Shown here: positions 6,001-64,000 of the stretch, one piece after another
Layout: every line of letters starts with the position of its first letter
Position numbering within the stretch: position 1 is the stretch's first letter
Source: Lineus longissimus
Taxonomy: Eukaryota; Nemertea; Pilidiophora; Heteronemertea; Lineidae
DNA length: 64,000 bases
NCBI RefSeq assembly: GCF_910592395.1
Contig: NC_088315.1
Span: 1,800,501 to 1,864,500 of the forward strand
Reading direction: 5' to 3'
The notes under the pieces: generated by a model
Told to the model about the DNA's origin: nothing
The model's database searches: none
Seen by the model: the letters and a program-made list of their open reading frames with translations, nothing else
Position numbers and translations under genes: made by a program

Positions 6001-7655
6001 ATAATTTCCCCTCAATCCACAGCTGAAGTTCAGTAACGTCACCATCCAAATTGATAAGGAGTTAACGGACGATCTAAGAGAAACTATCCGCAATCTAGGT
6101 TATGACGTCATAGTTTCCGCATGCTGGGATCTTCATCACGTGACATATGGCGAGGATTGGCGGAATTTCTACGAATGTGAACCAGAAAATTATACTGGTA
6201 GGTTGTGAAACCAGTTGCTATAGAAATATGCGCAACAAAACAAATAAATGATGGTCAACTGGATGAAAAAATTGCGGAGTCCAAATATTTTTTTCACTTA
6301 TTTTTTTTCTCCTCAAAATGAAGAAAAATCATTAGCCCCAAAAGTTTTTTGTCTTTGAAAAATTTTCAGAATTTTGAACTCTGAAGGAAAAAATTTCTGA
6401 GTACAAAAAAAAAATTTTTAATTTTTTTTCTGTTCAAAATGAAGACACATCATCAGCCCCAAAAACTTTTTGTCTTTGAAATTGTTTGAGAATTTTGAAT
6501 AAGTTCAACAATTTTGCCGGGAAAACCTAATCATGCATTTTGCCGTCCCCAGATTTTCAACTTCACTAACGCGACCACCCCGGTAACGCGACCATTCAAC
6601 ATCGGTCCCATGAGTGGTCGTGTTACCGGGGTTCCACTGTAGTAACTGTTGCAGTGTATCATGATTAGCATCATTTGAGATAGAAAGATTGCTCGCGGCC
6701 CGCCCGACAACTCGTCCTTTTCCAAGCATGCTCCCTTCCTATTACTCTTTCTCTTTTAGGCGGGCCGTTAACAGATGGTTCTATCCTTGGAGGCGAGGCC
6801 ACGATATGGACCCAGTACATAGACGGACCCAATATGGTGCCTTTAATGTGGTAAGCATTATAGATCTAAGTAGTAGAGTCTATGACAGTACTGGAGTCTT
6901 AGTTGCTGTCTTGCTCCCCGTGCAATGGAGGCATATCGAATGACTTTGCTCCCACACTCTGCAGGCGAACCATCTGAAGATGATGTTTTTTTTCGTTCTG
7001 GTGGACATCCAACCGCTGCAATATGACTCGCACATTCAGCCACCAATAAAACATATAAACAACTGCTCCATCCATCTTTTCAATCAAAGCCCGTCTTTCA
7101 CAGTAGCTACAATCCATGCTTGTTTTAGGCCTCGAGCTTCAGCAATGGCAGAGAGATTATGGAGTCCAAAGGAGACACGTGACATAGACTATGCCCTATA
7201 TCGACTGGATGAACATCGATGCCGGATGCTGAGGTTGGTAAACCATATTTTCAGTTATATATATAGCCGTGTGCGTATCTCAAAACGTTGAAAACCAAAA
7301 GACCACTTAAAGAACATCCCCGGAGAACGTCCCTGCGCCTGCCGTCCAAAACAAGCCCGTGTCGTAGTAAATATTTGATACAAACAAGCATGGCCTGTAG
7401 CCAAACATCCAAAAAGCAGTCCATCTTCCACTGATTATTTTGTTTTATTCTCTTTTCAGGCACGACGTCCCCTCCCAGCCGCTCACCTCGGGTTACTGTG
7501 GCGAATACGAGTTCTACGGCTGGGTTCACAGCAAGGCAGCATCTTCTGATAGGGTGGCTTATGGCATCCTGTACATCATGTGTGCCTGTATCATGGACCT
7601 TATCAAGGATATCTTCACGTTTCCTTCGACCACCAATAGCACAGTGGAGTCCTGA
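1..7655 (+). CDS. GH20 beta-hexosaminidase-like protein, probable pseudoenzyme (5' end outside window)
   Basis: Lysosomal-type glycoside hydrolase family 20 homologue of HEXA/HEXB, which normally remove terminal GlcNAc/GalNAc. Exons: 1-106, 369-484, 678-788, 1410-1511, 1850-1988, 2585-2765, 2954-3107, 6023-6197, 6760-6850, 7129-7233, 7460-7655. All junctions are GT-AG, phases agree, and the total is 491 codons plus TGA. Family blocks are clear: [73 protein letters not shown]. The HxGGDE catalytic block, however, reads HVGLNDLD (Asp-Glu replaced by N245-D246). The usual WYLD is WDLH (catalytic Tyr replaced by D339), the Trp of the VEVW block is Ile, and WGE is WTQ. Fold and disulfide Cys are kept, so loss of hydrolysis is inferred, not decay: the frame is open throughout. 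A tail after the normal family end carries a hydrophobic stretch (residues 459-475). The N-terminus, about 100 or more residues, lies upstream of the window. Confidence 0.88.
3509..4428. repeat. Eight-copy tandem repeat, 116-bp unit
   Basis: Units start at 3509, 3625, 3741, 3857, 3973, 4089, 4205 and 4321, an exact 116-base spacing every time; the last copy stops near 4428. Each contains ATATGAAT, TTCCTCTCCAACGAA, CTATATAGGCCTATGAATAT (absent or altered in the first unit) and AGAAGTACTCACA. The first unit is the most divergent. Copies three to five share variants (GTATATGAATAG), which suggests local homogenisation. Entirely intronic. Confidence 0.95.
4541..4582. repeat. Perfect 15-bp inverted repeat, 12-base loop
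   Basis: Arms 4541-4555 (TGATGCTTTCGTGAT) and 4568-4582 are exact reverse complements around the loop GTATATAGGCCT. The loop repeats the TATAGGCCT word found in the neighbouring satellite. Two diverged copies of AAGTCCAACA..AAATATAT flank it near 4513 and 4649, so it may be a small non-autonomous element. Confidence 0.8.
6301..6500. repeat. Diverged AT-rich tandem duplication, period about 121
   Basis: The block starting at 6301 (T-run, TCAAAATGAAGA, CCCCAAAA, TTTTTTGTCTTTGAAA, GAATTTTGAA) recurs at 6422 with a few substitutions. It lies in the intron between GH20 exons ending 6197 and starting 6760. Confidence 0.7.
6568..6641. mobile_element. Possible pogo/Tigger-like MITE fragment
   Basis: An imperfect inverted repeat (GACCACCCCGGTAACGCGACC against GGTCGTGTTACCGGGGTT) ends in GGGGTTCCACTGTA, which resembles the terminal CAGTGGAACC of pogo-family elements in reverse. 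The other end is not recognisable, so this is probably truncated. Confidence 0.4.
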
Positions 7656-12468: not shown

Positions 12469-15400
12469 TCACCACCATGATTTCAACTCCTTAGAGTCCT
12501 TATCGTCTTTGCCATCTTTCAATGTTTCGTTACTATTGTCCTGGTTTGTTTTACTATTCTCTTTATCCTCCGTTGACGTGTTATGGTTCGATAGCAACAC
12601 TCGCGTTAAATCGTCTAAGATATCAACATCCTTTTCGTCAATGAGGTTAAATTTCGTGTTAAAGATCATGAAGTGTTTCATGAGAATATTCAGATGTCCT
12701 TGCAAACTGAGTTGGACTAATTCCTTGAAGTGAGCGTGGTAAAGATGTGCTAACACATGGAATAACAGTCGATGAATCTTCTTGACCATCGCCTCAAAGT
12801 CTGACGGGAAGACTTGACCTGCAAGTGACAAGAGATTATTTAGCAGCTATCTGGGACAATGACCCAGAAAATCTGTTGAAAGACATTGAACACAGATGGC
12901 AGCACGTGATGATGGACACCAGAGTTCCTCAAGTGGAGTCGTTGGGTTATTTTGAGTTGTCTCAATGAGTCAGAAAAAGAGCTACATAAACTGGGTTAAC
13001 CAGGCACCTATGAGCCCAGATCACCTACTACTTCAGTTGATTCTAAAGGGAATGCTGTTATTTAATGACAACATGAACCTTGACAAAAAGCCCAGTCAGC
13101 AATCTCGTAATGATTTTCATTTCATGGGAAAGCTCATATGGCCAGCAAGGAGTCTTCCTCATTGATAACACTGCCTGGATATTTGTCACCAGAATGAAAG
13201 CTAACATTAATGAAGACGCCCTTCCAAAATGTTTTTACAGAGCCAATCTTGAATATCATGAGACAGCACCTACAGCCAGGGCAGCTTGGGTGGCCCACCA
13301 ACCATCAGATCGAGGCTCCAAACCCTCAGATCACATGCTGGACACCTTTGACCAGAGTTACATACGTACCATATTTGGTTGGGAAGATCGATTCATCCGC
13401 AATTGTCTTTTGTATATAGGTCATGACATAGTCCACGTACTGAGGGGCAGCACATTTACATTTTTTGCCTTTTTCGTCCAACCAATAGTATTGTCTGGAA
13501 AAGTTAAAACAGAAGTTCAATAAAACTTCGCCAACATTTTTTTAACTGTAGTGTCTAGAAAATGAACACGGAAGATCACCATGACATTTTCCCCATTTCC
13601 ATTTATCAAGATAACTTATTGATATCAGTAACGTACCAGGAAATCAGTCAGATACTTGAGTTATATCAGCAGAGTTACATGTTTGTTATGTCGCCACCCC
13701 ACTTCTACATACCAAGTCATTTCAACTCAGTTCTCGTTGATCAGGCACAGAAGACTTCATGTCATAGTGTCACCATGAGTTCCAACACAGTTCATCCGTA
13801 GTATGAGTGTGAGTGAGAAGGGTGCATTACCTCTCCATGGTACTTACGTATTACAAGGTGCTGTCATGGCAGTGCATCCCGTCGCTGTACAATACTCAGA
13901 TATAGTCCCATACATGAGGTTGATATGTTCAAAGAAGGAGATAGCTGCAAATAATAGTGTTAATAGTTTCATAAGAGCTGTGTCCATTTATAAGGGGTGT
14001 ATCTCACAGGTGTCCTAAGTTGGCCAAGGAACTTAGGACCTCTTGCTCCTGGGATATCATGGGTCCCTTCTCTTGAAGTACATTGTTGGGTACATGACAC
14101 AAAACTAGTTTTAAAGCATCAGCTTGTGGCCTTGATGTTCTCAGTCTGACTAGTCACACATGATGATAATATTTTGAAACATGACTCAGCTGGTTGTAAA
14201 GAAAATATTTTGGATCACTTCTAAAACTGAGAGCCCATGCTGTAGAAATCATCACCTGAATTCATCAGATAAAGATAACATTAACCTGCCACAACATATC
14301 GCTCAAGAACAAATCAGAAACAGCTTCTGATTAAATCTGTTGAGAAATTAGCCAAATTTCACTGTATCACTTTCGTATTCTCTGTGCTAGCTGCATCAAA
14401 GAAGTCTAACAGACACAGTCTTTGCTGTTGGAGACTGGAGAAATGAAGTTAATTGGTCCCTAAGTGATGATTGACAGGTTGTCTGAGACAGCTAACCACA
14501 AGATATTGTTTGTACTTGGGGAGACGACTGGGTTGAATAACAATCCCACCAGAGGACACAAGTCACAAATATTGTTCTTGGAGAGTGGCCAGCTACGACG
14601 AGCCAAAGACATCATTTGTTGATCAAATCACATATTTCCGTCTTCTCTAAATGTTTCAATCAGCAGTCATTTCAACGTCTTGGAGCTTATTTTCAACAGA
14701 CAGCGACATATCAAGCAGGCAGACAACATCGGAAATGAGCGGCTTCCTGCTGTCATTCTTGATCAAATTCATGTTTGAATTTGCGGTCTGAATTTGATTG
14801 ATTCTGACCGATCTTAGACACAGTGTCATATCTGACATCTTCAGTCTGGAGTGAGAGTTGAGGATGCCACTGGATTGTCACAAGATTCCTGCTTTTCACT
14901 TCTAGATTAGGGTTCCCAGATGTCCCTATACGAATGGTCAGGTGGAAAAGCACATGTCAGCACCTCATCTATACTCACTATGTGTTGCAAGCCACTCATC
15001 ATGACACAGTCCCTTTGGTTGGTGGATTAACTCTATGAGGTCACCGTCCGACACACACGAATCACGAACATATTGGTCTTCTAGGTAAAGTCTGTATTCT
15101 TCAGGGGCGGGGGTTGGCGAGTCTTTGTCTTTTCGTCGCCCTTTCCTGAAGAGAGAAAAGCGAAACAATGTGTTAGAATGTTGGAAGAGAATGGTGACAA
15201 CTTTGTCTTGACAGAAAATGCTGTTCCTAAGTTTGTGCATCATCATGTGGAGTTCTCAGATTGGCAGCAATTCCTATAAGCAACTGAAATAAAACAGGTG
15301 GTAAGTTTGAACTGTGTTCTGTTCTAATCTTTGATGATACTCTGTACAACACAGAAGTACAACCGACCCAAGCTTTTAACCTCTCAATCAAGCCCTCGGT

Positions 15401-18400: not shown

Positions 18401-21400
18401 GCAAAGATTGATCCAACATTACAAAACCAACACAATCTCGGGGGTTTTCTTCCCAACTGCAGCCAACGGAGATTTCTTCTGCAGAAAAAAGCAATACCTT
18501 GCTTGTTTCATCTGTGCTAAGTTAAACCTTTAGCTACACTAGAATCACTGGATGAACTGGATGCAGATTTGCTCAGATAAGGAGGAGTGTACGACTTTAT
18601 CTTGGTACAATCTTGTTCACAGATGGGTTAACACACCACACCTAGTAGACCAAAGGCAATCAAAGACCAACCATGACTGTTGGGCATTTCTCTGGAAGTG
18701 GTGCACCATGAATATGGATGGTGAATGGTCATCATCTGATCAGCCCCCAAAAAAGAATTACATCACTAAAGTGAGTCACATATTCGCATAGGGAGGATGT
18801 CATCACTGACGGCGCCCATAGCCGACTATAGGACCAAGAATATCGATATTGATCCAACTCATCATGTTCATAATTAGAATATAACCAACAGTCCTAGTGC
18901 TTTATCCCAGTGTTGACTCTGACCATTCATTCCTGCCTGATCCATAGGGAGGATGTCATCACTGACGGCGCCCATAGCCGACTATAGGACCAAGAATATC
19001 GATATTGATCCAACTCATCATGTTCATAATTAGAATATAACCAACAGTCCTAGTGCTTTATCCCAGTGTTGACTCTGACCATTCATTCCTGCCTGATAGC
19101 AGGGCCAATAAGGGTAGGCTTAATTGGAAACTACATTGTAAGACGTCAGATCAGTAAAAGACCGAAGGCTAATAACATGGTACAGCCAAACCGCTACATA
19201 ACTATGCAATGTTTAGATACATTACTTAAAATTAAACAGCCAGCCATGAAATGGCAGGGTCAAGGAGTCAGGTTGGTCATATTGGCATTTAAAGTAGATG
19301 AAAAGAGCCCACAATTTTGCAGGGAATGGCACTTATTTTCCTTTTTGAAGCCGCAAATATTTCCCAGGACTTAATCGACACTGTATAAAAATCTTCGGGC
19401 CCTGGAGTCAAATTAGGCAAATTGTCAAGTGCCTGTTCCACCCTGATGACTGCTTCATGATTATCCAAAACTTGGCTGTCTTTCTGCGAAGGACAAAGAC
19501 CAGGCAACAAGGCAGAGGTGGGCAATCCCTGTCACTTTTTTTAGCAACTTTCACCGATTGCTTTGGGGCACACCTGCCCCCTTGACATTCAATTAGCTGC
19601 ATTATCAAAATGATAAGTGGAGTTTGACAAACTGCTGAGGACATCACAAAGGAGGTGTGAAAATAGTCTCCATACGAATCTACCTCAGAGATATCAATCG
19701 CTACTTTCTTTTGTTCCAAATGTGGCACAGTCCTGGAGGGAATTCTTAATTTGTTCTTTTCCCGGATGTTGCGAAATCTGCGCGCAAGAACAAGGGCTTC
19801 GAGATCAGGGTTGCATGAAGGGAGATGGTGTGAGAGATATATTTTAGATAAATGAAGGCCAGGATGGCAGGAAGTTACTAATATACAAGCTGTCATACAG
19901 CGAGAGTCAGACTAGTTCAACAGTGCCACTGCCATCAGCCTGAACCGCACACAAGTCATACATGTCAATGTGGTAACCATTTCAAACCGTATTGATACAA
20001 ACCAATACGATAGTATGTACTGGCAAGAACGAATAGGTGGTGTCCCAGACTCATGGGTTGCCAACTGTAGCCAATACAGCCATCCAATGATGACCAAGTC
20101 GATACAAGAACCTCCCTTATGGTGTCAGTTGACACATCTCTCCCCTCATGATCCTCATTACGCCACCTTCAGTCACGTTACTCCCCGATAACACCTCATA
20201 TTTGACCTCCTTCGATAATAACTGCTTTGATGCCTTAACCTATAATAGGATAATTGACATCTGTCAAATCAATCAGTTAGGTAACACACAAAATGATCAA
20301 TCAATTATCATATTTATCATTATCACGGTACCTACCATAGTATCGTGATCACTGTCACCTGTTTTTTTTAATGTCACTCATGTCAAATTTTGTTTCACTT
20401 TGAACACCAGTTCAGGTAGTTTCATTCCCTCGACAAAACAGATAAGATTTTTGCCATTTTCACTGTAGTCCACCAAAAAGACAGTGCATGCAGTGTCTGC
20501 ACATCCCGAACTGTTCCTTGTTGGAAGCCTACCAGAAGTCACTGAACCGACAGCATCACAGGTGTCTGAAGTAGACTACTTTTCTAGGTACCTGTAAACC
20601 TATTATTAGGTCAAGGCAAGGCCTTTGCCAAACTTGAATGAGAGGAGAGAAGGCCTAGCACAAGCAGGTAGCTAACCAAGGCAAGAGGTGTATGGAGATG
20701 CTTCATTCTCAGAGGTCATGTATCAAATTGGACTACTACTCTATCAACAATACAACAGGTAGGCCTCTGGAAGATTTGAGTTAGGTCATCTGCACTGCCT
20801 TGAGAAGATATTTGGACACAAGTGCTCTTCCCCTTCCCACAATGCTAGACAGGTGCAACTGGTGGTTGAACTTGAGTTGCCATGTTTCAGGCACTCCCAA
20901 ACAGTCTAACAGGAACATATGGCCGAGCGTCTGAATTACCGGCATCAATGAATTATGAATCGAGGAAAGTCGATGTTTCATTCACAACGTTGAGTTGGTA
21001 TGCAGAAAGAATTGATCTAATCATCATAGCCACCTCATGTAGTAGGCAGCAACACTTGATAGCTGGACTTAGTTTGAACAAAACCAGTTACTAGGTGTTA
21101 GGGGGGGGGGGGAGGGGGACACACAGGCCCTGAAATACACAGCTAACGATGAAAATCAGCGAAAGAGGAGACAGCATCAAAGACAAGGCCTGAAGAGTTA
21201 AACACATCTTAGGCCTGAGGAGTTAAACACATCTTACAGGTCTGAAACAATCTGTAATGTTGGTCACACTAGACATAAGAAAATATCATAACGTTCATCA
21301 AATCTCACACTAGACATAAGAAAGATCAACATGATGAAAGAAATAGATGATGCTCACCAGAAGTTGAATATGTACAACGCCGAGTTCCGACCATGCTTCA

Positions 21401-31471: not shown

Positions 31472-31649
31472 CAGTGGAACCTCCCTTAGCGGACACCTTT
31501 CTATTAAGGACAACCTCACTATTAAGGACACTAGTTTTGGTCCCAAATTGGTTGTTTCCATTCAATTTGACCTCTCTAATCAGGATACCTCTCTATTAAG
31601 GACAGCACTTGTCAGTCCCGAGGGTGTCCTTCATAGAGAGGTTCTACTG
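31472..31649. mobile_element. Pogo/Tigger-like MITE
   Basis: A 178-bp element begins CAGTGGAACCTC and ends GAGGTTCTACTG. The ends are imperfect inverted repeats and are flanked by TA on both sides, the target duplication of Tc1/mariner/pogo elements. Internal sub-terminal repeats (CTATTAAGGACA) occur several times. There is no coding capacity, so it must be moved by a transposase made elsewhere. Confidence 0.75.
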
Positions 31650-34026
31650 TATGCTGCTTGAGAGAAACTGAAAAACACTAAACAATTATCACCAATTTTA
31701 TGGAGGTGTGGATGCCCCCACCTCCAGCTGCTGCCCTGGGATATGTGGGATGGGTCAGTCAGGATTGCCTGGTTTCCATTTTGTTCACAGAACAAGTTAC
31801 CCAGGTACATATATGTTCGTTGTTTTTTAACACCAAAACCTAGATGTCAACCAACCAGAAAATATAAACATTTATGACATTGTGTATCACAGTCTAGGTC
31901 AGATATGCTATTAAAGGGGAATTGCAAAAACATAAAGGCATATTGCCAAAATAAGCAGTAGCAAGATTTATAAAAGCAACACTTTTTATAATAAAGCCTT
32001 TCAGAAAAGCCAACATTCCTTTGGATTTTAATACAAATATTTTTGTTTGGGGTTAAACACACTTGATGGGGTGAATAGCCAAAAGCTATGAGTATGAGAT
32101 CTAACAAGATATCATTATGTCAGTGATATATTGATGATTTGCGAGGAAACTCTTCCAAGACTGATTGACCCGATGCCCAGATAACCACAGACAATAGACT
32201 GCAAAATATTCATAGATTGCCAGCAATGCCCACTGTACTGACCTCCGACTAAATAATATCCACCCCTATCCACCCCTATGTTGCGGACCAACATGTTATT
32301 CATTCCACTGCCTTTACACAATAAACAGAATTCCATTTTATTTTCTTTATATTGGTGACCTACCGGGTACATGTACAATGACCGAGTGATGCAGCAACAA
32401 GGAAGAGGATTGGAAACTGTTTTACGAGGGGAGTAAATTCTGAGCAGCCAACGCATCAAGCAACATTGCAATATACGGTTGGTATTCCCACAACCAATGT
32501 CTTTGAATACAGATAATTGTATCGACCCAACTGTTATACCTGCTATTGATGAATGTGCAATCAAAAATCTGACATCAAATCTACAACCTTTAACTTCAAG
32601 AATTCTTCAACCGGTTGACTCGTGCTAACTGCTAGTATTTGTAACTTTTTTGTGCAACACCAACACCAGAGGAAGAGCCTTGACTGGTGCAACATAGTCA
32701 CAACAACAGACTATGTAATTACCAGAACCAAGCAGTTTTCAGGACAGAACGCTGGCAAATGGCATGGCCCACTTTATCTATGAATAAAAATTATGGTTTA
32801 TTACCAAATATTGTTCACATATTTGGCCTGACAAAAAACATGACAAAGGGACCATGTCCTTAAATCACGTCCAGAATTGATCAACGTCAAATCAAAATAT
32901 ATAACCTCCAACCTCAGCCAAAGAAGACAACTAAATTTGGGATTCATCTTTAGCATTTTTATGAATTTATGTACGCTGAGAGTGAGAATTCAGCCCAGGA
33001 ATGAATACTCGTATGCAAAACCTTTCATGCCTTTGGAAGTTTGATTTCAGAGTGAAATGATTGGATTTTGTCAGCCAAAAACCATACAGTTTGTATACTT
33101 CCTGATGAAGTGATACCTAATATTGATTCATGATAATCAAGACATTGGATTACACTTGACATTTGAATGTCACCAGTCCGTGTAAAGAACACAAGAGACA
33201 ATACACCACAAAAATGATCTCCAACTGGGAGAGCTGGAGTCCATGTACACCTCCATGTACAAAGTTTCCACCAGTCGCTCAAACATCTTTATCTATGCAC
33301 CTACAGAATCTGAGTGAACTGCCCCCACACTTATGTAGATGGTCCGTTAGGGCCTTCTCTGCAATTGTAGGAAAGGAACAAGTCAAATTCTGTGTCAAAC
33401 CCAACACCATGGACGATAAAAACTATCAAACCAAATAAATTCCAAATTTATCATACACAAGTCACAATCTGACCAAGTCTACTGATATTCTTGCTACAGT
33501 TATCGCAGTTACTACAGGTGTTGTATTGCGAGAGAAATGTTCCCAAAATAGACTAAGCTAAGCTGATTGGAGCTGAGTGGATTGGCAGGTTTCATATAAC
33601 AGGATGGCATGACCTTCTCAGATTGGCAGATTCTCTTTACAATCAATAAGAATAGCAAGTTATTCAAGACGAGATACATCATTACATGATAGAAATTTTA
33701 TTCAAAAGAAAAACATTCAATAATTCTCTTCTCAGAATGATAAATGACAAAGAAAATGACAAAGAAATGACAAAGAAAATATCCCATTTTCTGTTGTTGC
33801 AATTTTGATGTGAAGTGAAACCACACCAACAACAGCCTGTTGCCAGTGTTGGTGCCGAGAAGACACTATTACATATCGACACAAATGAAACACTGTGTGA
33901 AGTAAACTCTTGTCGTCGCAATCATCTTATCATCGAGTGATCGACATCGATGACGATGGCATCATAACGAATACAGGCCGATTCGGTCCGTCCCCAACTC
34001 AGTCTCAGACCGCTTGTGTCACACAA

Positions 34027-34069
34027 AAATGATCTCCCAGGCCCTGGCCCTCGGCCTCGGAGATCATTT
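34027..34069. repeat. Inverted repeat with GC-rich loop
   Basis: Arms AAATGATCTCC (34027-34037) and GGAGATCATTT (34059-34069) are perfect complements around a 21-base C/G-rich loop. It sits in a CpG-richer patch (about 33.9-34.1 kb) compared with its surroundings. Confidence 0.7.
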
Positions 34070-34450
34070 CAAGTGGAACAAGCACGGAACAGCTGATATG
34101 TGATATCATGACAGCTGAAGACGTAATAAGAAGGGCTTAGCTTATGAACTCTGTGTCAAAGTCTGTACACAACAACAAGTACATTTTGTAACCTAACATG
34201 CAACCAGTACATGATCATCATGATGTACACAAAACGCACTAGAAACATGGAGGAGCTTAGGGACGTGTTTTTTGCACAGCTGTCAAGACATATAAGTGAG
34301 TTTGATAAGAGTTGCATCCTGCACCTACCCCATAAACCAGTCCATTGTGTCCCGAAAATATTCAGGGAGCCTCTCCAGATTGACGGTGTGAGTCGTTTGC
34401 CGAGAAAACACTCAACAAAAACAAACCCTCAAGATGCTCTTCTGCCCAAG

Positions 34451-47054: not shown

Positions 47055-48600
47055 GTATGTCGGAAATATTTTGCCAATTTTGTCTTTTATCACTCTTCAA
47101 AAATGTAATTGACGAGTTCATTCGATTTGTGTCAATACCAGGAGAAGTTTTCGTGAAGTTTCTTCTTCACTTTCTGGTGTTATTTGTCTTAGATATTGAC
47201 TCAAAGTCAAATGCACTAAATTTTCGTTTAGCCTACTCCCAGTCCCACACCGCATAGCCATAGGCCTATTGGGGGAATGCATGTAAAGTGAACGAACTGG
47301 TCACTTCTCAACATTTTTGCCAATATCTGTTATGCTTTATCGACAGAGGCTCTACATCAAGTTTCAGCAGTACAAGCCTCGCAGTACTGCGCTGTCGCAG
47401 ATTACTTAACTCTACCGTCTGTAGTGGATCCACGGACACTTTTACTTTTAGTTTTACAGAACACTCATACACTGTGACAGTCTGTGTGACTGTGCACTGG
47501 CCACATAATTAATGTCGTAATAATGGTGATTGCATTTAACAGAATGGTGTGTTGTGTGCTGGTCCTTTATGGCTTTTATACAGGCAGATTGAATGCTTTC
47601 ATTCTTGTGGTTTTATATCATTCTGTAAGTGTTACAGAGTTTACTATCTCAGTATCTTTGAAACTAAGTAGGCCTACATGTAGTAATAAGTATAAAACCA
47701 TATGTTTTGTCACCAACTGTCATCAAAATATTCATCTCCATTCAACAAGTATATATGTGACCCTTGCCCTATTAAAAAGAAAAAACATTTTTCTTTATCG
47801 TGGTACAGTGGTAGGCCTATAGGATGGTCGTTTATATAAAGTGAGTTACCGTCCGTATATTACCTCAGGTCCTTATTCTCTCTGTAATATTACAGGTCCA
47901 TGTAACACAGTCTAGGCGGGCTGAAGTATGTACATACATGTAAGGCTTTGGAATTTATGTGTATGTTGTCCTATTCCTAACATTCACTAAACCATTACAG
48001 GCATAACTGACGGCATAACTAGACTGAATGTTTAGGCTTTGTTACATCACCTTCTCCTTTGTAGTATGGTTGTGTGTATGCTTACATGTAGCCTGTTGGT
48101 GGAGGCCCATTGGCATTGCAGGACTCGAGGCCTTTGGATGTGGCAGCTTTTGGGGCGATCTTTACTCGTTTTGAAATTGTATTCTGTTCGTACTGAATTG
48201 ATTGTCAAGGTTGGTGATGTTTTGTATTGGGGACTTTCAAGAGATTGCGCTTTAACTTAATACTAGTTACAGACCTCTCATGACCTTCCGATTATTTGAT
48301 CAAATTAACCTGGTTGTGTAGTTGCCAGCACAAATTTTACCATCAGCGCTCAGAAACTAAAGCACAAGATGTGGTTTTCTCTTCTCAACAGCTGGTTCAG
48401 TTTGGTGCTAAGGAAGAAATGGTGACCAAGCCTAAAGCCATGCGTTTGTGTTGCTGATGACAGTTTTGTAAAAAAGAGAGACCATTCCGGTAAGCAGTTC
48501 ACTGTAATGTGAGTAAGGTTTATTTCTACGTCTGTCAGAATATAGACGGCTTTGCAAAAATACCTAGACGTTAACACATTTATTGCTTGCTCATGCTTGT
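47055..48600. other. No gene seen
   Basis: AT-rich DNA between the candidate promoter and the first microRNA hairpin. It would be intron or primary microRNA transcript if 47.0 kb is the start site. Confidence 0.4.
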
Positions 48601-48671
48601 CTTCATATATGGCACCGGTAGAATTCACGGCTGAATGCAACGTCGTGGTCTTTCTGGTGCTGTGTCTGAAG
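48601..48671 (+). ncRNA. mir-183/263-like: microRNA hairpin A, miR-183/263 family
   Basis: The 5' arm 48608-48630 begins TATGGCACCGGTAGAATTC and ends ACGG; seed ATGGCAC. This is the miR-183/263a pattern (known members read UAUGGCACUGGUAGAAUUCA or AAUGGCACUGGAAGAAUUCA). The 3' arm CGTGGTCTTTCTGGTGCTGTG (about 48644-48664) pairs with it, and outer CTTCA/TGAAG close the stem. The loop is about 13 bases. Confidence 0.85.
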
Positions 48672-48844
48672 GCACAGCAAATTCGCTTTCAGTGGTATCA
48701 AAACTACATGTAGACATTGCTGTGGCTAGTCCTCTACTGTTGGACGAGTAGTTGCTAGGAATAGCATCATTTGTGTCCTGTGTTGAGGTAGTTGATATGA
48801 GGTCACTCATGGTGCTAGTCGTACTGATGCTTTAGATGTGCTTT

Positions 48845-48909
48845 CTGTCTATGGCACTGGAAGAATTCACACAAAATAAAAGTTGTGAATCTTTTGGTGT
48901 CAAGTACAG
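48845..48909 (+). ncRNA. mir-183/263-like: microRNA hairpin B, miR-183/263 family
   Basis: The 5' arm 48850-48872 begins TATGGCACTGGAAGAATTCA, the closest of the six to the family consensus. The 3' arm TTGTGAATCTTTTGGTGTCA (48883-48902) pairs through G:U and Watson-Crick pairs, and CTGT/ACAG extend the stem. Loop A-rich, about 10 bases. Confidence 0.88.
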
Positions 48910-49010
48910 ATTGCTCTAGTTGCCTCTCCTGCTTGGTCATTAGTGTAGAATGTGTCGCTTCATAGCTTCTGCTTCATCAAATAAACCACCTCCATGTCTG
49001 ACCTTCTCTG

Positions 49011-49078
49011 TCTCTGAATGGCACCTGAAGAATTCACGGGACAAATTGAAACGCCGTGGATTTTGGGGTGCCGTACAT
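49011..49078 (+). ncRNA. mir-263-like: microRNA hairpin C, miR-263a-like
   Basis: The 5' arm 49017-49040 begins AATGGCACCTGAAGAATTCA and ends CGGG, with the 24-base length and AAUGGCAC start of arthropod miR-263a; only the TG at positions 9-10 differs (CT). The 3' arm CCGTGGATTTTGGGGTGCCG (49054-49073) pairs along its length. Confidence 0.88.
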
Positions 49079-49280
49079 GGATGGACAGTTTGCGTCTGAT
49101 CTGAAGAATATAAAATTAAACAGGAAAGTTGAATATACTCAATGTGGACGACATTGGAAATTTTCTCGAAAAACAAGCACGTTTATCAGGTTCCAAATAA
49201 CCTTTTTACACGTGAAGCCTATCTTGCTCTTTTGTCCTTTTCTCCACAATGAATGAGTGCCTGCTTAGACCACTGCTTAC

Positions 49281-49347
49281 AAGAGCTATGGCACTTTAGA
49301 ATTCACTGTCGTCCATCATCGGTGGCTTGTAGGGTGCTGTGGCTCTT
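49281..49347 (+). ncRNA. mir-183-like: microRNA hairpin D, miR-183-like
   Basis: The 5' arm 49287-49308 begins TATGGCACTTTAGAATTCAC, one base shorter in the middle than its neighbours. The 3' arm GGTGGCTTGTAGGGTGCTGT pairs almost fully, with many G:U pairs, and AAGAGC/GGCTCTT closes the stem. Confidence 0.82.
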
Positions 49348-50392
49348 GGTGTAGTTAGCTGCTTTCGCTGGCCATGGATGCTTAGTGGACAACTGCTGGC
49401 TTTGGTGCTGGATCTCAGTCAACAGGGATGATCTTTGGAAACTACAAAGTCACCTGGGAGGATGCCACCTATTCACCACTTTTCTCAGCAGAATTCATGT
49501 GGGACTTCCTGTCAGGTGACAGGTTTTGACCAATCAAAACCCCTGTGTGTGATAATGGCCATGATGTCAGTGCCGCACAAGCCTGATAGCTTGGGTGTTT
49601 CCTAAAATATCTGAAAAATAAATAGTCAACGTGTCTATAGTGAAGTGTGGTACTAGTAGTCGGTGTCAATAGTGTACTCCGCGTACTTCCTAACAGGGTT
49701 AAATGTTGTAACCCAGATCGTGAATGATTTGACCTTGTTATTACACATGATTATCAACTTGGTCATGACAGAATGACCAAAAATACTTCTGATAAAAATG
49801 TGATCGAAAATCATTCTGATCACAAGAGGTAGTGTTTGATTTCTGTCATTTTATAAACGGTACTTCAAAACTTGTTATTGTTTTGGATACACAACCTAAG
49901 CTAGCATCTTAAAACATTGAAGATGACAGGTAAACAGAAATAGGTAAGATTTTAATAAAGGTAAGATTTTGTCAAAAAGTCTATGGTACTGCCTGTGGTG
50001 TAGGGTAGGCTCGTAGGCCTTTATGTTCATCTGTCTTTATATTGCACTTGGCCATGCCTGGCTAGGGATGGATTGGAAGTTGCTTATCAAGTCTGCTGCA
50101 GAATCCTGACTTAGTTATGAAGACTTTGAATCGGAGCCACTGAAAATGAATCAGTGCTGCTGTTTCCAGTATTGGTTGGTCATGGAACCAAATGGCCAAA
50201 AAATGCATCCGAAAACAGCACTGCACTTAGCTGACTGGGTGGATTCTTTGGGCTATTAGTGCCATGACCCATCCATAGCAGCGCTATTTCCGTTCCAGGT
50301 CCCCAAATTGCAGCACCGATTCCATGTCCTCATAGAGAATTGTATCATAGTTCGTAGTTGTATATGTTTCTCCTGCTCTGCTTTGTCATTCT

Positions 50393-50458
50393 GTCTATGG
50401 CACCAGAAGAATCCACGGTGTTGATGATAATCTGTGATTGTTCTTGTGTCATGCATGG
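50393..50458 (+). ncRNA. mir-183/263-like: microRNA hairpin E, miR-183/263 family
   Basis: The 5' arm 50396-50418 begins TATGGCACCAGAAGAATCCA, with C for T in the usual AATTC. The 3' arm CTGTGATTGTTCTTGTGTCA (about 50432-50451) pairs with one bulge. The leading TCTGTC is shared with hairpin B, which supports tandem duplication. Confidence 0.78.
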
Positions 50459-50930
50459 ACTTGACTGCTTACCTCGACCTGCATGAGATGATCGTCTCTG
50501 CTCCAAGCTTCACTACTGCAGTTTCCATTCCAAGGAGGTTGAAGGGGATGAAGAAAACTGCGTCAACCTGCAGCCTGATGTAACATCCTGCTACCAGCAA
50601 GCCAGGATGCGGCACCCTTCACTGCTTCATCTGCTTACCTTTCATTGGCAACGCCTGCCTGTAGACCTCAAGTGCAACCAAAGCAAAATTCGACAGCACT
50701 TTCTCCTGTGAATGATTACATATCGAAGGTCTCCTAGGCCAGAGAACTGTGGAACTTTCAGGGTGACAGCCGGCTCTGTCTTCCATTGTCATTGGAATGC
50801 AGTGCTGCCAAGTAGAAATGCTGGTCAAAGGGCTTGGGTGCATTTTCACCTACTCTTCTTCCTTCTGTAGGTTGGGAATTTATAATTCTAGCAAAAGATT
50901 ATAGGCCTACTATAACTTAGTGCTTGGGTT

Positions 50931-50994
50931 CCAGGTTTGGCACCAATAGAATTCATGGTTTATTGGATCCATGAACTTACTGGTGACTCTCGTG
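50931..50994 (+). ncRNA. mir-96/263-like: microRNA hairpin F, miR-96/182/263b-like seed
   Basis: The 5' arm 50936-50958 begins TTTGGCACCAATAGAATTCA and ends TGG. Its seed TTGGCAC is that of miR-96 and miR-263b, not the ATGGCAC of the other five. The 3' arm CCATGAACTTACTGGTGACT (about 50969-50988) pairs closely. Confidence 0.82.
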
Positions 50995-51419
50995 GGGTGA
51001 CTGTACAGCGGCAATCAAAACATGGTACTGCAGTCGCTTTCCAGCTACATTTTATTCTATGCTAGCTTTGGGTATCAAATTTCGAATTATGAAAGTATTC
51101 CTCGCATCTTTGATTGGTGAATGTTTTATAAAAAGTAGAAAAAAGTTCTAACCCTGTTCATGAATATGTTACAAAAGACATTTGTTAGTTCATTCATTCA
51201 ACATTCCATTTATGATATATAGGTCTGTCTTTTGTTATGGCTCTTAGTCCTGCAAATTATTCTAAGAAGCGGCTGACCTGACCATAACAACAATTTATGA
51301 CTGTCATAGTGCTGCCTTAATCATTAGATTTCATACGAGCGATATCAAATCTGGTTACCAATATGTAGAGGCCTTATGAAAGAACTATATGTGGGGAGAG
51401 TAATTGCTTGACGAGAGTG

Positions 51420-55482: not shown

Positions 55483-58400
55483 ATGGGGGATGAAGCGAAA
55501 GGCGAGATTGATGTCACCGTGACGCCCGCCGTGTCTCGTGCTTCGCTTCAGGAACCAGATGAAGATGCAGGGAAGTGCGGCTATGGAGACTGTACACCCA
55601 ACTGCCTCCAGAGATTCCATAATCCTCCTTGGTTGCTGGCTTCCTTATGCTTCATGGTCATTGTCCAAGGTGAGTATGCAACGACATTTGGCCTTGTTTG
55701 TGCAAGTATGAATGTGCTGTCAGTCACAAGGCAGAAATTTGCCTCAATTTCTTCCTCATCTGGCCGAAGGCCTGATTGCTCCGAATTCTAAATCCGAATG
55801 AAAGAAAGACTGATCTTATCCTCATTATATTGGTTAGTTTTTTTCGACTTTTAGGTTTCATTGTGACTGGTCTGATGGGTTCCGTCATCTCCACCCTAGA
55901 GCGTCGTTTCAACCTGAGTAGTACACAAACAGGCTTGATTGCAACAACGTATGATATGTCTGTCGCCCTGGTGTTGATTCCAGTCACTTATTACGGCGGT
56001 CACCAGCACAAAGGCAAATGGCTAGGTAGGACATCACAAGGGGCCATACATGAAACAATTTGGTTGGTGACAATATTATATATGTGAGCCTTGAGTATTT
56101 GATACCATGTATGGTATCCTGGGTACCACCTGGGTGGATATCCAGGCCGATAGGCCTCTAGTTATTGATATGTCGATAATGAAGGAGACAAATGAATTAG
56201 AAAACACAGCAGTTCTGTGTAGTTGCTCCTGAAGTGTTGGTGGTTGGACACGAAAGCTGTCCAAAGACAAAGACATGACCAGAGGTTGGAGAGCTGTCAT
56301 TGGGAACTGTCAATGGCATTAACTTTTTGCATTTTCTCAGATGACGGCAGTGTTGCACATCCATCCCACATCCGTGACCTCTTTATTTCTCTTCAGCGTA
56401 CGGCAGTATAATAATGGGTGTTGGCTCCCTTGTGATGGTTATTCCCCAGTTTACCACAGACGTCTACAAGATCGGGTCGTCCCACCTTACATACTGTTCA
56501 GGTACGAGTCTTCTGCAAGCTGGATTGATAACAGCAGTCCAAGGCAGCTGGTGGGTGTCAGTGCTGATCTAATACTTTCTGTCGCAATGCCAATGCTGTC
56601 ACATTCCAAGTTTGGACAGGTTTGATTTTCGTGGTGTCATCCCTACTGTACGCCAGCCAAACTTACCTTATGAGCCACTCTGTCGAAAGCTTTCTTGTCT
56701 CGATTGGGAGACAAGAAAATAGTTTGTAGCTAGCTGGCTGCTTATCAACTGGTCAAAGACATTGGCACAACCCACAAGTCTCCATCTTTTCATCTGTGAA
56801 CTTGATATCTAAACCATTTGGACTTCATCTTTTATCAAGTTGGTTTCGCTGCCTCCATTTCAGCTTCCTCTGTAAACACGACTGCAAGACCTGAATGCCT
56901 GACCAATGAAAACTTAAGTGATTACATCTACGTGTTCATCCTGTCTCAGTTCCTGATTGGTCTCGGTGCCTCGCCAATGTTTTCACTCACTTTTGTCTAT
57001 TTGGATGAGAACCTGTCAAGTGATTCGTCGGCACTGTATATAGGTAAGTTTCTCAGGGGTGTTGCCCTTTAATTCTTGCCAGTTTTGTCCAAAGACAAGT
57101 GTGACCTAATCAGCAATTGACAGGATAAGGAGCCAACAGATGGTGCCTGTTATCCATCTCATACAGGGGCATGGCGATTGAAGCGACTTGCCCGAGTTCA
57201 CATGTGACGTAGTCTTTGCTATCGAACCCACTATGTTCTGAATATGAGTCTAACACCTTTGCCACTGAGGCATACTAGACCCCCCCCCCCCCACCCCTTG
57301 ATATTCTGTTTTTTTCCTTAGTATCCTGTTGGGTGACACACCAACTTGGTCCAGATTTCCTTTCATCTATCCACATATTGCATTTGTTTGTTTCAGGGAT
57401 TTACTACGCTGTGAGTATCTTGGGTCCAGCGCTTGGTTTCCTTCTCGGTGGTTACTTCCTCAATACATATGGAGATGTCGGATTTGTAGATGTCACCAGG
57501 TTAGTTGTGTTGGGCATGTTTATAAATCCCCCTGAACTAATCATCCCTGCATGGTTTCTGTTGTGCTTCTTTTCTGACCTGGTTCTGTCTCAAGACTTTA
57601 CAACTATGATGGGTCTCCTCAGGCAAACTCATGGGTATAAAGAGGTTGCCGATACAGTGTTAACTCCTCCACCGAATACATAGGAAATCCGTCTGAATCC
57701 AAATATGTTTCTACTAATCTGCTCAAACTTTTCACCTTCAGCCTAGCTATTACAAAAGATGACCCACAATGGTATGGAGCATGGTGGATAGGCTATATCC
57801 TTTGTGGCATCCTGGCCTTGATTGCGGCATTCCCACTCTTCTGTTATGCTCGGGAATTACCAGGCGCAGCAGCGAGGCGGCACAAAAGCTATAAAGAAAC
57901 TGATGAACACTCTAATGAATCTGGTTTTGGGACCAGCTTAAAAGACCTCCCAGCAGCTTTAAAAAACATTTTCCAAATACCGACATTTGTGTTATTAGCA
58001 CTCTGTGATAGTCTCGAGGCTTTAGCGGTTGCTGGGGCTGCCACGTTTATGCCAAAGTACCTCGAGACCCAGTATGGACTGAGTTCAGGTTTAGCTTCTA
58101 TAGTAGCAGGTAATTTATCATCATTGGTGTGGGCTTAGCCTTCAAAACTCTAGTTGTTTTGGAAAACTATCAGAAATGTTGCAAAGCTTTGTAATTCACA
58201 TGAAAAGAATAGTCCTATTAGTAGATTCACATCGAGAGCTAATTCAACTAATGGCTGTGAAGATTGAGGTTTTGACTATGTTACCTTTTGTGGACAATTT
58301 CTGTGTCCTTGAGTGACCTTCATATTCTTGTCTTCAAGGTGGTGTCATGATCCCTGCAGGAGGTGGCGGTGCCATCCTTGGCGGCATCATCATCAAGAAG

Positions 58401-60151
58401 TGGAAACTTGGATGCAGCAGCATCATGAAGGGCTGCATCGTTGCCCTCACACTCTCATCATTCTTCACCATCGCTGTCCTGGCTAGCTGTCCCAATAGAG
58501 ACATTGCTGGTGTAACTGTGCCATATTTTACAAAGTGAGTAAGAAGAGATGTTGGCTTGCTCTTGTGCAGACAACTCCAGATCATGTCATATGCGAGAGA
58601 AAATTGTTTATGCGGGAACGAGTAATTTGGATGTGTATGTTCAAGACTAGAGGCATCTGTAACAGGGAATATTTCCTAATTTACGGTATCACATATCACT
58701 TGATTTGAAATTTGTCAGTTAGTGTTATAAGTTGTCTTTCTTCTTTCTGTAGTACCTCCTTGACAACGATAAGTAGTTGCAATGCAGACTGCAATTGTAG
58801 ATTTTACGCCTACGATCCAGTCTGTGCCGACGAAAGGATAGAGTACCTGACTCCTTGCTTTGCTGGTTGCACCAACTTCACAGGTCAGACGGTAAGAATG
58901 CATTCTATGAGGCTCTCTTGAGGAAATAGTTGATGATTATCGATGAATAGTGTGATGTTGCTTCTCCACCGGTTGGTCAGAGGCCATCACTTTACCTGCT
59001 TTCTGTTAAGACTTTTCATAGTACATTGTATTTCTTGTAACTTGTGGCCAACTTACTTTCTACTTATGGCTCTTCATTCCTGGGCCACAGGCATGCAGCA
59101 TATTCGTCATCAATTTCAAGATGGCAGGGCAAAAATGTTGACTATTACTACATGACTGTGAAGAGCTCCTGACTGGTTTGACAGTACTTTTAATCAATAT
59201 GCTATTTCTTTCCAGCAATCCTGTCGTTGTACCGAGGGCACCAACCAGATATTAAAGTATGGGGCGTGTCCAGCAACTTGTACATTCCTGCCACTCTTCC
59301 TAACTGCTCTCTTCTTCATCATATTCTTTGGCTTCTGCGCTTCAACACCAACCGTCCAGGCAACTTTAAGGTGAGGAATGACTTCTGACCATCAATCTGT
59401 CGCGCGATCTGTCATCAATCTGTTGCAACTCATTCAGCCCAAGTTACAATCGAACTCTGCATTTTCCACTGTCACAACCTGAATTATCAATGAAATAACA
59501 GAAAGAGGTTCCACTGTATATTGGTAGCATATTTTTTCAGGTGTGTTCCATTCAAGCAGAGGTCTTTAGCGACAGGCGTGTCTTGGATCTTCGTCCGATG
59601 TCTTGGTAAGTAAAAGACACAGGACTCTAGCAAGCCGAGCCCTGAATACTAGGGCGATTTTGAAAGGGGTAAAAGGTTCCATGGCTAAAGTCTTACCAAG
59701 ACCCTTCCTTGATTCATTTGTTAGGGATTCTGGAACCTATCACCTAACTAACAAGGATCAGTAATCCATCTTTGTTTCATATGTTTCAGGTGCCATTCCC
59801 AGCCCATTGATATTTGGGGCCCTGCTAGATGGTGTCTGCCTTAAATGGGGGGAGCACTGTGGAGAGAAAACGTCATGTCAGATCTACGCCAATGAACAAG
59901 CGAGCTATCGTGTTGTCATTGGAGTCCTCAGTTGTAAGGTCATGGCCGTCCTCTTCATGGTGTTGGCATGGAAAATGTACCGACCGCCTCAAGATGCTGA
60001 ACCACTCGAGAATCATGTCTACCTGGAAGCAAAGGGGGAGACAAATATGGCACTTGACATGGATGGGACAGCTCCCAATGGGGATGTGAACTCTATGGTG
60101 AAATTAGATAGCACTGGATCTAATGGTGGTCCAGTGTCCAGTCGTTTGTAA
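55483..60151 (+). CDS. Solute carrier organic anion transporter (OATP/SLCO family)
   Basis: Twelve-pass plasma-membrane transporter for bulky organic anions. Exons: 55483-55669, 55855-56025, 56397-56501, 56864-57043, 57397-57499, 57742-58109, 58339-58534, 58753-58891, 59216-59370, 59541-59605, 59790-60151. Phases agree throughout and give 676 residues, the normal family length. The ATG has a good context (ACAATGG) and an in-frame TAA 39 bases upstream. Visible motifs: CGYGDCTPNCLQRF before TM1, RRFNLSSTQTGLIATTYD after it, the family signature as DDPQWYGAWWIGYIL (residues 255-269), and the Cys-rich Kazal-type extracellular loop from C446 (CNADCNCRFYAYDPVC..) into the next exon. The signature has Gln-Trp-Tyr where most members have Arg-Trp-Val. 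The cytosolic tail is Gly/Asn/Ser-rich. Which SLCO subfamily it belongs to cannot be told by eye. Confidence 0.95.
57165..57275 (-). mobile_element. tRNA-derived SINE in an SLCO intron
   Basis: On the minus strand TGCCTCAGTGGCAAAGG (A box, about 57273-57257) and GGGTTCGATAGC (B box, about 57230-57219) lie at tRNA-like spacing. The order is that of a tRNA-type SINE head. A poly-C run follows at 57280 on the plus strand. Confidence 0.6.
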
Positions 60152-61450: not shown

Positions 61451-64000
61451 TCACACTGCACTTACAGAGTTCATTTCCCTTCCTTCACCAAGTATGTTTT
61501 CTTCTCCAGATTTCAGATTCTGTGACAAGCGGTCGTATGTTGGCTGTAGTGCGATGATAAACCAAGCCACAACAGCGAAACAGCCCCTGGCAATGTTCAC
61601 GTTCCTCCAGGTGTAGATCAGATCGTCGGCAGTCTGCAAAGAATGCAATTAACACTAAGAAATAGGAATTCTCATCCTTGACTTAATTTCAACTCCCTGG
61701 GATTTTTTGACTTGGTGCTCTCACATTTTCAAATTCAGGAGCAACCACACAAGATAATGATAAAATACTTAAGGATGTCACAGGCCCGTGCTAATTTCAT
61801 GATTTCACCTAAGGACAATGCATATCTTGGCCATAAGCATCTTTAGTTTAAGGCCTTGAAAAACCCATTGGTTTCTTATACACATCAATACTGAAATTAT
61901 TACAGAAATATACAATCAGTGCTGCCTTGACAATTGGCAATGGGCAGGACGTAATTTCATGATTTGACGAGTGATGACCGACACATGAAAGCGTGGAGGT
62001 TTTTTTTCTTACCGTAGCATCTCCCCAGTAGAAAGTCGAGTTCACCCCATAAAGTCTCATCTTGTCATCCGTATCTGCGATGCTGAGGCTGAGAATCATG
62101 GCAACAAAGTAGAAGAGGATGGAGATGGCACCGTTCTGCATTGTCAGGCATTGAATCAGAAACCTTCGGTTCATGCGACACACATCAAATCTGAAATAGC
62201 AATGATAAAGAAATTGATACTTATAATTAATAATTTTATAAAATTATACAATTATAAGTTCAACCATTTACCATTTATTCTTTTTGCTAAGGAACTACAT
62301 TTTTTGCATTTTTTTTTCATCAGGATTTGAGATAAGACATTTTTTCCAACTGAGGTATTTTGATTAGGAATATAATTTGAAAACAAGAGCAGACAACTTA
62401 CCTGTCTAAAGCAGAGACTGTACAGATAACAAACATGAGATAGTAGGCCACTTGAACTGGCCATGCTATTTCGTTGTACAGGTCAAGAAATTCTGTATAG
62501 CTGTAGCCAAGGAGTATCAGCACCACAAAGCTGAACTGGCAGATGGCAAAACCGCCAAGTATTCCATGGATGAAGAGAGAGAAAATCCTCAGGCCTTTCT
62601 GGCTTGATAATGCAAAGTCTAAAGTGGATGCTCCTTTGGGCTCTTCAGTTTCTGCTGCGAGTCGACGTTCCTCAATTTCTGCCAAACGTCTGGCTAGTTT
62701 CTGTTTGTCCTCTTGTCTAAATCGGCCTGAAACAAGAACAATATAGGCCTCGAGAACCGTTCAACTATGATAGAAGAAGAAGGAACAGAGGGAGCCCAAC
62801 TATGTTTCGTGAATAGTGAATGGCAAAAGAGTGTTAGTATTATAGTGGGTCACCAAGGAACCCAATGTGCCATCAAGGGAAGTAATCAACCATCTAGCAG
62901 GTAAGCTCCTCCCCCATTCACTTCTCTCTGTATCTCTCTTCTCCCACAATACTTACTCTTCTGTTCTATATATAATTTGTTTGCCGGCTGACTCTTGAGA
63001 TTAACACCAGATGGTGCATTCACAACATCCTCTTCATCATCCTCATCATCTGCCTCGGTTTCAGATTTCACGCCATCAATGATGTCATCTTCCAAATCAG
63101 CAAGATCCGCAGCAAGACCACCATTGGCATATTCGTCTTTTAGATTGGTCCTATTGATTAAAGAGTCCATTATTTTTACAACAAAAAATGACATCTAAAA
63201 TATATGATGAGATTCATTTACACTACCATTGAACAGACCCTGTCTTCAAAGATAGACATTTAGAGTCAAGAAAAGACAGGACTGTGGGGCCTTGGTAAGT
63301 TCTAAACTTGGATAAGACCTCCACATACCTGGATGATCTTGGAGTTCTCCTCTTTTTCTTTCTTGGTGTCCTCCTGGGTGTTTCAGGTTCACCCTCGACC
63401 TCTTCAGACTGACCAATCAAACTGTGCTGACTGCCACTGGCATCTTGCTGCTGAAAAGAACAAAATGTCAACACACCAACATTAGACCACCAAACTAAGT
63501 ATTATTACACGGGGTTGATGTCATGGCTACTAAGTCAAACTGACATTGACAACAACAAGTTGGCCCCACTGGCCCCATTTCTCAGTCAATAAATATACGG
63601 TAACAAAGTGTTTATTTTAAACTTGCCAGCCGGCCATGGACATAGAGCCTAGACTAGAGGCTATGCGCCGAGCTAGACTTGATGCGCAATCCCCTCAGCA
63701 GTCAAGGCCTGGAGGTTACGTTCGTCACTGGCCAATCTTTGATGGATTCTAAATAGGGGATTCTAACACCATTCCTTACCGTCAATATGCTGCTGGGCTG
63801 TCAGTGAGTGAAATACTAGAACATTTAGGCCTACAAAACAATAATCTGCATTTGCATAGGATAGGCTATGCTACCGTCCTTTAGCTTACCTTTGGCTTCC
63901 TCGGCGACTTTTTTCGAGGTTTCCTGGCTCTTGGCGTTGCCTGATCGCCATCAACCACATCCCCACCAGTGTCAGCAGACGGCCCTTCTTCACCACCAGC
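61451..64000 (-). CDS. TMEM237: Transmembrane protein 237 (5' end outside window)
   Basis: Four-pass protein of the ciliary transition zone; the human gene is mutated in Joubert syndrome 14. Exons in transcript order: 64000-63890 (continues beyond the window), 63450-63329, 63150-62957, 62726-62402, 62190-62013, 61633-61451. Phases agree and give 370 residues to the TGA; the human protein is about 408, so roughly 40 residues are missing. The N-terminal part is disordered and basic (ARKPRKKSPRKPK; TPRRTPRKKKRRTPRSSR) and then acidic (ETEADDEDDEEDVV). A helical RRLAEIEERR stretch precedes four hydrophobic segments at fragment residues about 190-214, 231-247, 271-289 and 323-340. CTVSALDRFDVCRM matches the family's conserved loop. 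Identification rests on architecture plus this loop and the W-x-NVN-x-x-R block before the last segment. Confidence 0.85.

Follow-up and report, generated by a model that had tools for sequence, protein, structure and literature searches.

A probable tandem MIR-96/183/263 microRNA cluster in the nemertean Lineus longissimus

Does a short stretch of Lineus longissimus DNA, in which one motif recurs on a single strand, hold a cluster of microRNA genes, and how many of its members could still work as precursors? We analyzed a stretch of 64 kb (hereafter the window) from this heteronemertean, in which six loci, A to F, span 48597-51002 on the plus strand. The evidence makes it highly likely that A-F are a tandem MIR-96/183/263 microRNA cluster, very probably composed of five copies with the seed AUGGCAC and one divergent copy, F, with the seed UUGGCAC. 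Few microRNA markers of ciliated sensory cells are as well conserved as this family. As far as the excerpts of the published reports go, the family itself is already known, and the cluster is larger than its three-member deuterostome form; among the matches listed in literature searches, none dealt with a miR-183/263 cluster in a nemertean.

Motif, fold and conservation of the six loci

The motif TGGCAC...AGAATTCAC was present at six plus-strand loci, with TGGCAC at 48610, 48852, 49019, 49289, 50398 and 50938. A loose TGGCA...AGAAT scan also matched the minus strand at 48327 and 61255, neither of which is part of the set. With a 16-position motif and at most two mismatches, we found five sites on the plus strand and none on the minus strand of the window, against three sites in total in 100 dinucleotide shuffles (both strands); this motif was composed after the sites had been seen, which flatters the rarity figure, a fault from which the Rfam match is free. 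Being ungapped, it could not score D, owing to a 1-nt deletion.

All six loci lie on the plus strand. Hairpins A (48597-48675; predicted 5p 48608-48629, UAUGGCACCGGUAGAAUUCACG), B (48839-48915; predicted 5p 48850-48871, UAUGGCACUGGAAGAAUUCACA), C (49006-49086; predicted 5p 49017-49038, AAUGGCACCUGAAGAAUUCACG), D (49276-49352; predicted 5p 49287-49308, UAUGGCACUUUAGAAUUCACUG, with the deletion in mid-arm) and E (50385-50464; predicted 5p 50396-50417, UAUGGCACCAGAAGAAUCCACG) have the seed AUGGCAC in common, the predicted 5' ends of A, B, D and E beginning UAUGGCAC and that of C AAUGGCAC. Locus F (50925-51002; predicted 5p 50936-50957, UUUGGCACCAAUAGAAUUCAUG) begins UUUGGCAC, has the seed UUGGCAC and a weak lower stem. 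The 5p pattern of the family, a (U/A/C)(A/U)UGGCAC seed region followed by the 3' half AGAAUUCAC, was found at all six, with small variants (the deletion in D, AGAAUCCAC in E and AGAAUUCAU in F).

When the whole 64 kb was searched against 4227 Rfam families, the only gathering-level match was mir-263 (RF00706, gathering line 51.3 bits) at 49006-49086, with 53.4 bits; C is thus the one locus of six to pass this line, and the other five score beneath it. In a search of 47.5-52 kb, mir-263 matched B, E, A and D at 48.0, 43.9, 42.2 and 27.4 bits, with E-values of 3.6e-10 to 0.0011 in these 4.5 kb, and antisense matches below gathering appeared at E (26.4 bits), B (25.8 bits) and C (18.4 bits). F reached 16.7 bits (E 0.071) when its 121 bases were searched alone. 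In a comparison with reference sequences, the arm of C was nearest fly miR-263a (21/24) and worm miR-228 (21/23), that of D nearest Halocynthia miR-183 (21/24), and those of A, B and E about equally near miR-263a and miR-183. The arm of F, against the same references, was nearest Halocynthia miR-183 (19/24), and this likeness over the whole arm argues against filing F as a miR-96 orthologue.

Folding with tight ends gave energies of -32.8 for A (z -6.05), -26.8 for B (z -5.93), -33.8 for C (z -6.21) and -34.1 for D (z -5.99), none of them equaled in 1000 shuffles, whereas E (-24.9, z -3.3) was equaled by 3 and F (-20.6, z -1.99) by 39 of 1000. Wider ends and 200 shuffles yielded z values of -7.25, -5.91, -6.63, -6.71, -2.97 and -0.28 for A to F, with 71 of the 200 shuffles as good as F. 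The plus strand of A-E folded better than its reverse complement; for F the reverse complement was slightly better (-21.9 vs -21.3). Predicted inter-arm loops measured 13-18 nt. The two arms of a genuine animal microRNA are expected to have no fewer than about 16 nucleotides paired, a level reached by A-E (19, 20, 19, 20 and 19 of 22) and not by F (14 of 22).

Mean identity over the 15 hairpin pairs was 0.836 for the 5p arm, 0.557 for the 3p arm, 0.375 for the loop, and 0.348 and 0.370 for the two sides of the lower stem. The 5p arm is therefore the best-conserved part, which is the pattern expected of a 5p product under selection. Two-sided changes that keep the pair were seen at 10 of 27 consensus pairs, compared with a mean of 5.1 in 500 shuffles (10 reached in 2 of them) and 4-5 pairs when the partner was slid by 1-3 columns; the consensus structure was derived from the same six sequences, which gives it an advantage in either control, and a set of six related sequences is small. 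UG at -14/-13 and CNNC are processing marks whose positions were counted from the predicted cut sites. Five of the six loci (B-F, not A) carried CNNC at an offset of 16-18 beyond the predicted 3' cut, with a background of 14.2% of window positions (P ~3e-4 for five of six), and one of the six had UG at -14/-13.

These results bear on what a first-pass annotation of this DNA had proposed. Its six motif sites on one strand within 2.4 kb were recovered by the loose scan, and the motif, the folds and Rfam bore out the family and microRNA nature of A-E, as did arm conservation and covariation. Its six hairpins became five: judged by fold energies against shuffles, A-E are solid and F is weak (39/1000 and 71/200 shuffles as good), so that the folding check it had suggested came out clearly for A-D (0/1000) and for E (3/1000) and did not set F convincingly apart from shuffled sequence.

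It is extremely improbable that chance hairpins, or an inverted repeat of a mobile element, merely mimic the family here: the window does hold additional strong hairpins that belong to no known family, for example at 34000-34085 and 6560-6650, but motif rarity, the Rfam match, the 5p-biased conservation and the covariation all speak against this explanation, and the cluster DNA did not recur elsewhere in the window at E 0.01. A model built from A-E without F scored F at 23.5 bits (E 1.7e-4; the antisense of training hairpin C scored 23.7), and F is related to A-E by alignment, with 0 of 500 shuffles as good; on both counts F is a family member by descent. As a working precursor it is doubtful. 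It is quite possible that the working microRNA genes are limited to A-D or A-E and that F is a decaying copy, the functional cluster then having four or five members, as the z values of F (-1.99 or -0.28), its 14 of 22 paired arm nucleotides and its bulged lower stem suggest, together with the modest fold of E (z -3.3, 3 of 1000 shuffles equal or better). Against decay, F retains its 5p arm, a CNNC at offset 17 and its kinship with A-E (0/500 shuffles) and shows a pair kept by changes on both sides (columns 34/53, C-G to U-A), and E has 19 of 22 arm nucleotides paired.

Run over the window with filters off, the A-E model produced 28 hits with E-values of at most 10. Beyond the training hairpins the best were antisense C (23.7 bits) and F (23.5), followed by antisense B, A and E; lower scores fell on a palindrome at 31587-31642 (18.7 and 18.4), on 50178-50269 of the minus strand (15.7) and on 6574-6635 (15.6). 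Elsewhere in the window, 34000-34085 is a near-perfect hairpin (-44.4 on the minus strand and -37.2 on the plus strand, with slightly different ends) with no Rfam match; it may represent either a new microRNA or an inverted repeat. The repeat at 6560-6650 is long and perfect-looking, with GC-rich arms (-42.6), and resembles a mobile element; it has no second full copy in the window. We also noted a minus-strand 18-mer, TTGGCACTTGCACATTTT, running from 61256 downwards, with one mismatch to the miR-96 core (0/100 shuffles at one mismatch or fewer). It was rejected as a family locus, having no hairpin, no good complementary arm within ~450 nt and no Rfam match to MIR-96/183/263.

Duplication history and genomic setting

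The first-pass annotation had A, B and E sharing flanks as well as arms, which a comparison of 120-nt flanks did not find. Long flank matches (77, 90 and 51 nt) arose only where neighboring 120-nt flank windows physically overlap, the others being 9-12 nt, and what B and E have in common is 7 nt, TTCTGTC, beside the 5p arm and inside the lower stem. Whole-hairpin identity ranged from 41% (B/D) to 67% (A/C). Because the copies have diverged this far and their flanks are unshared, the duplications look old. The serial tandem duplication proposed earlier fits the layout of the loci, but the shared flanks that would mark a recent series are missing; from the alignments, the copies look tandem yet old.

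The enlarged cluster might accordingly go far back among lophotrochozoans instead of being an expansion within nemerteans, a reading that we regard as tenable though short of favored. The distance between copies (41-67% identity over whole hairpins) and the lack of common flanks are in its favor, as are the several MIR-96 paralogues named in oyster, e.g. Cgi-mir-96-P3, in an excerpted report (PMC7488030). Against it, no linked set of at least five members in another lophotrochozoan was found among the matches listed in our literature searches.

Three genes were recognized around the cluster. Downstream on the plus strand, the coding exons of an SLCO4C1-like gene (55483-60148) account for 675 of the 676 residues of a Lineus longissimus NCBI protein in 11 exact pieces, in order, the sole missing residue falling between two pieces, as with a split codon; a protein assembled by eye from the exons at 55.4-60.2 kb matched the NCBI protein at 97% over 100% of the query. 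On the minus strand lie a TMEM237 gene (61851-62760, two exon-bearing ORFs, Pfam TMEM237) and the 3' coding part of a MOB2-like gene (12472-13939, Pfam Mob1_phocein), the latter with three significant tblastn pieces at 12595-13939 when human MOB2 was the query. Pfam domains were found in 6 of the 20 ORFs searched, all from these three genes. Since the significant MOB2-like coding pieces extend up to 13939 and SLCO4 coding begins at 55483, the cluster looks intergenic, with undetected 5' exons of the neighbors possible. Placement inside the intron of a host gene is disfavored by the same two boundaries.

Several further features of the neighborhood were observed. TMEM237 is a ciliary transition-zone protein, and its gene sits ~11 kb from this cluster, whose family is itself associated with ciliated sensory cells. 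Four of the eight plus-strand GTGCCAT seed matches lie in or just past the SLCO4 gene (58369, 58518, 59790 and 60345), one of them ~200 nt beyond its stop codon. This neighbor could be a candidate target of the cluster microRNAs, a pattern noticed post hoc. The window also holds two tandem arrays, one at 3508-4421 (116-bp unit, 7.9 copies) and one at 18787-19097 (156-bp unit, 2.0 identical copies).

A complementary site between D and E

Between D and E lies a further hairpin, G (50178-50269), with a fold z of -4.81 on the plus and -3.75 on the minus strand. Its 3' arm contains GTGGATTCTT-10 nt-GTGCCAT at 50239-50265 on the plus strand, complementary to the 5p arms of A-E with a central bulge; in RNA form, GUGGAUUCUU-10 nt-GUGCCAU, it provides the A-E microRNAs with a 7-nt seed match and about ten 3' pairs. 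On the minus strand G reads ATGGCAC-11 nt-AGAATCCAC, and the ATGGCAC-AGAATCCAC pattern with a gap of 0-20 nt was found in the window only at A-E and G, with a single occurrence over both strands of 300 shuffled windows. Among 21,095 plus-strand windows outside A-F, 50239-50265 gave the top-ranking duplex with every one of A-E (-22.5 to -26.6 kcal/mol); its duplex with F ranked ninth. Shuffles of the 1934-nt spacer (n = 100) never matched the duplex energy of the site for B or E, the two tested. The duplex ranks, the rarity of the pattern and the spacer shuffles together indicate that this complementarity is not due to chance.

We rejected G as a seventh member on the sense strand, where it scored 3.7 bits and 379 of 500 shuffles were as family-like. 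On the minus strand, the 5' half resembles the 5' halves of the family (0/500 shuffles as good) and the other half is unlike the family 3' halves (107/500 as good), leaving the whole moderately family-like (7/500 shuffles by sum score, 46/500 by best score). The idea that G is an inverted copy is thus half supported by these scores; the site may be an inverted copy with a drifted star arm or a target site that has been kept, and both fit. Two further hairpins occur in the D-E spacer on the plus strand, one at 50140-50235 (z -3.35), which overlaps G and represents a different folding of some of the same sequence, and one at 49436-49536 (z -1.90); neither showed family likeness beyond that of shuffles.

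A bolder reading, which we consider unlikely, is that the cluster carries its own candidate target site: the mature microRNAs may bind their own precursor transcript and either feed back on its processing or be degraded, with five same-seed copies raising the dose and the 5p-like sequence stemming from an inverted E-type copy. In C. elegans, let-7 autoregulation reportedly works by way of a let-7 site that the let-7 primary transcript itself contains. The arrangement here is similar in that a site complementary to the mature microRNA (50239-50265) lies within the presumed primary transcript, and differs in that the candidate site is part of a hairpin and may have arisen as an inverted copy. 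If the site does bind, self-feedback by a microRNA cluster could be put to the test here.

Proposed function and comparison with known systems

Strand and spacing suggest that one non-coding plus-strand transcript probably bears the hairpins, which Drosha and Dicer would cleave; arm conservation suggests that Argonaute would be loaded with the conserved 5p arm. With the seed AUGGCAC common to A-E, all five should repress the same set of mRNAs, those bearing GUGCCAU. They would differ mainly in the 3' half, whose conserved part in D is displaced by one nucleotide, and five same-seed copies permit a test of dose versus target splitting. F, with UUGGCAC, the other old seed of the family, would act on a second set of mRNAs if processed.

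By analogy, the cluster is likely to be expressed in ciliated mechano- and chemosensory cells, a sensory role that we infer for Lineus longissimus from the expression of the family in other animals. A larval apical organ marked by miR-183 has been described in an annelid. Part of that report places miR-183 in two putative mechanosensory cells of the organ (PMC3939940), and an excerpt of another describes protection of the sense organs of flies by miR-263a/b, along with expression of the family in sensory organs with cilia across several animals (PMC2885982). Amphioxus miR-183 is likewise found in sensory cells, with linkage of members reported in other deuterostomes (PMC3145563, in part). During metamorphosis of the whelk Rapana venosa, the values for miR-183-x (51432, 40226 and 407 TPM) and miR-263-x (57624, 41416 and 514 TPM) change in step with each other, according to an excerpt of the study (PMC5714496).

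Among protostomes, C. elegans has several 5'-related members, miR-228 and miR-63 to -66, -229, -790 and -791, in the portion of the report consulted (PMC2486268). Hairpin C is like miR-228, at 21/23. The other C. elegans relatives are more divergent, and unlike them the Lineus longissimus copies retain the AGAATTCAC half. Fly miR-263a/b have the same two seed types as the loci described here; C resembles miR-263a at 21/24, and Rfam mir-263 is the model that matches. The fly genes are two separate loci, whereas in Lineus longissimus the set is tandem.

The closest parallel in arrangement is the deuterostome miR-183/96/182 cluster. Halocynthia carries miR-183, miR-96 and miR-182, in that order, along one strand (PMC5399378, in part), and in both systems, as far as the excerpts extend, the members are linked on one strand with an AUGGCAC-type member first and a UUGGCAC-type member last (PMC5399378, PMC4551935). 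The differences lie in number and type: the deuterostome cluster has three members, whereas here six loci, five of them with the AUGGCAC seed, occupy 2.4 kb; the miR-182-type seed (UUGGCAA) is absent; and F is nearest miR-183 over the whole arm, not miR-96. Linkage of both seed types in a lophotrochozoan, in the order known from deuterostomes, would be consistent with a linked pair that predates the protostome-deuterostome split.
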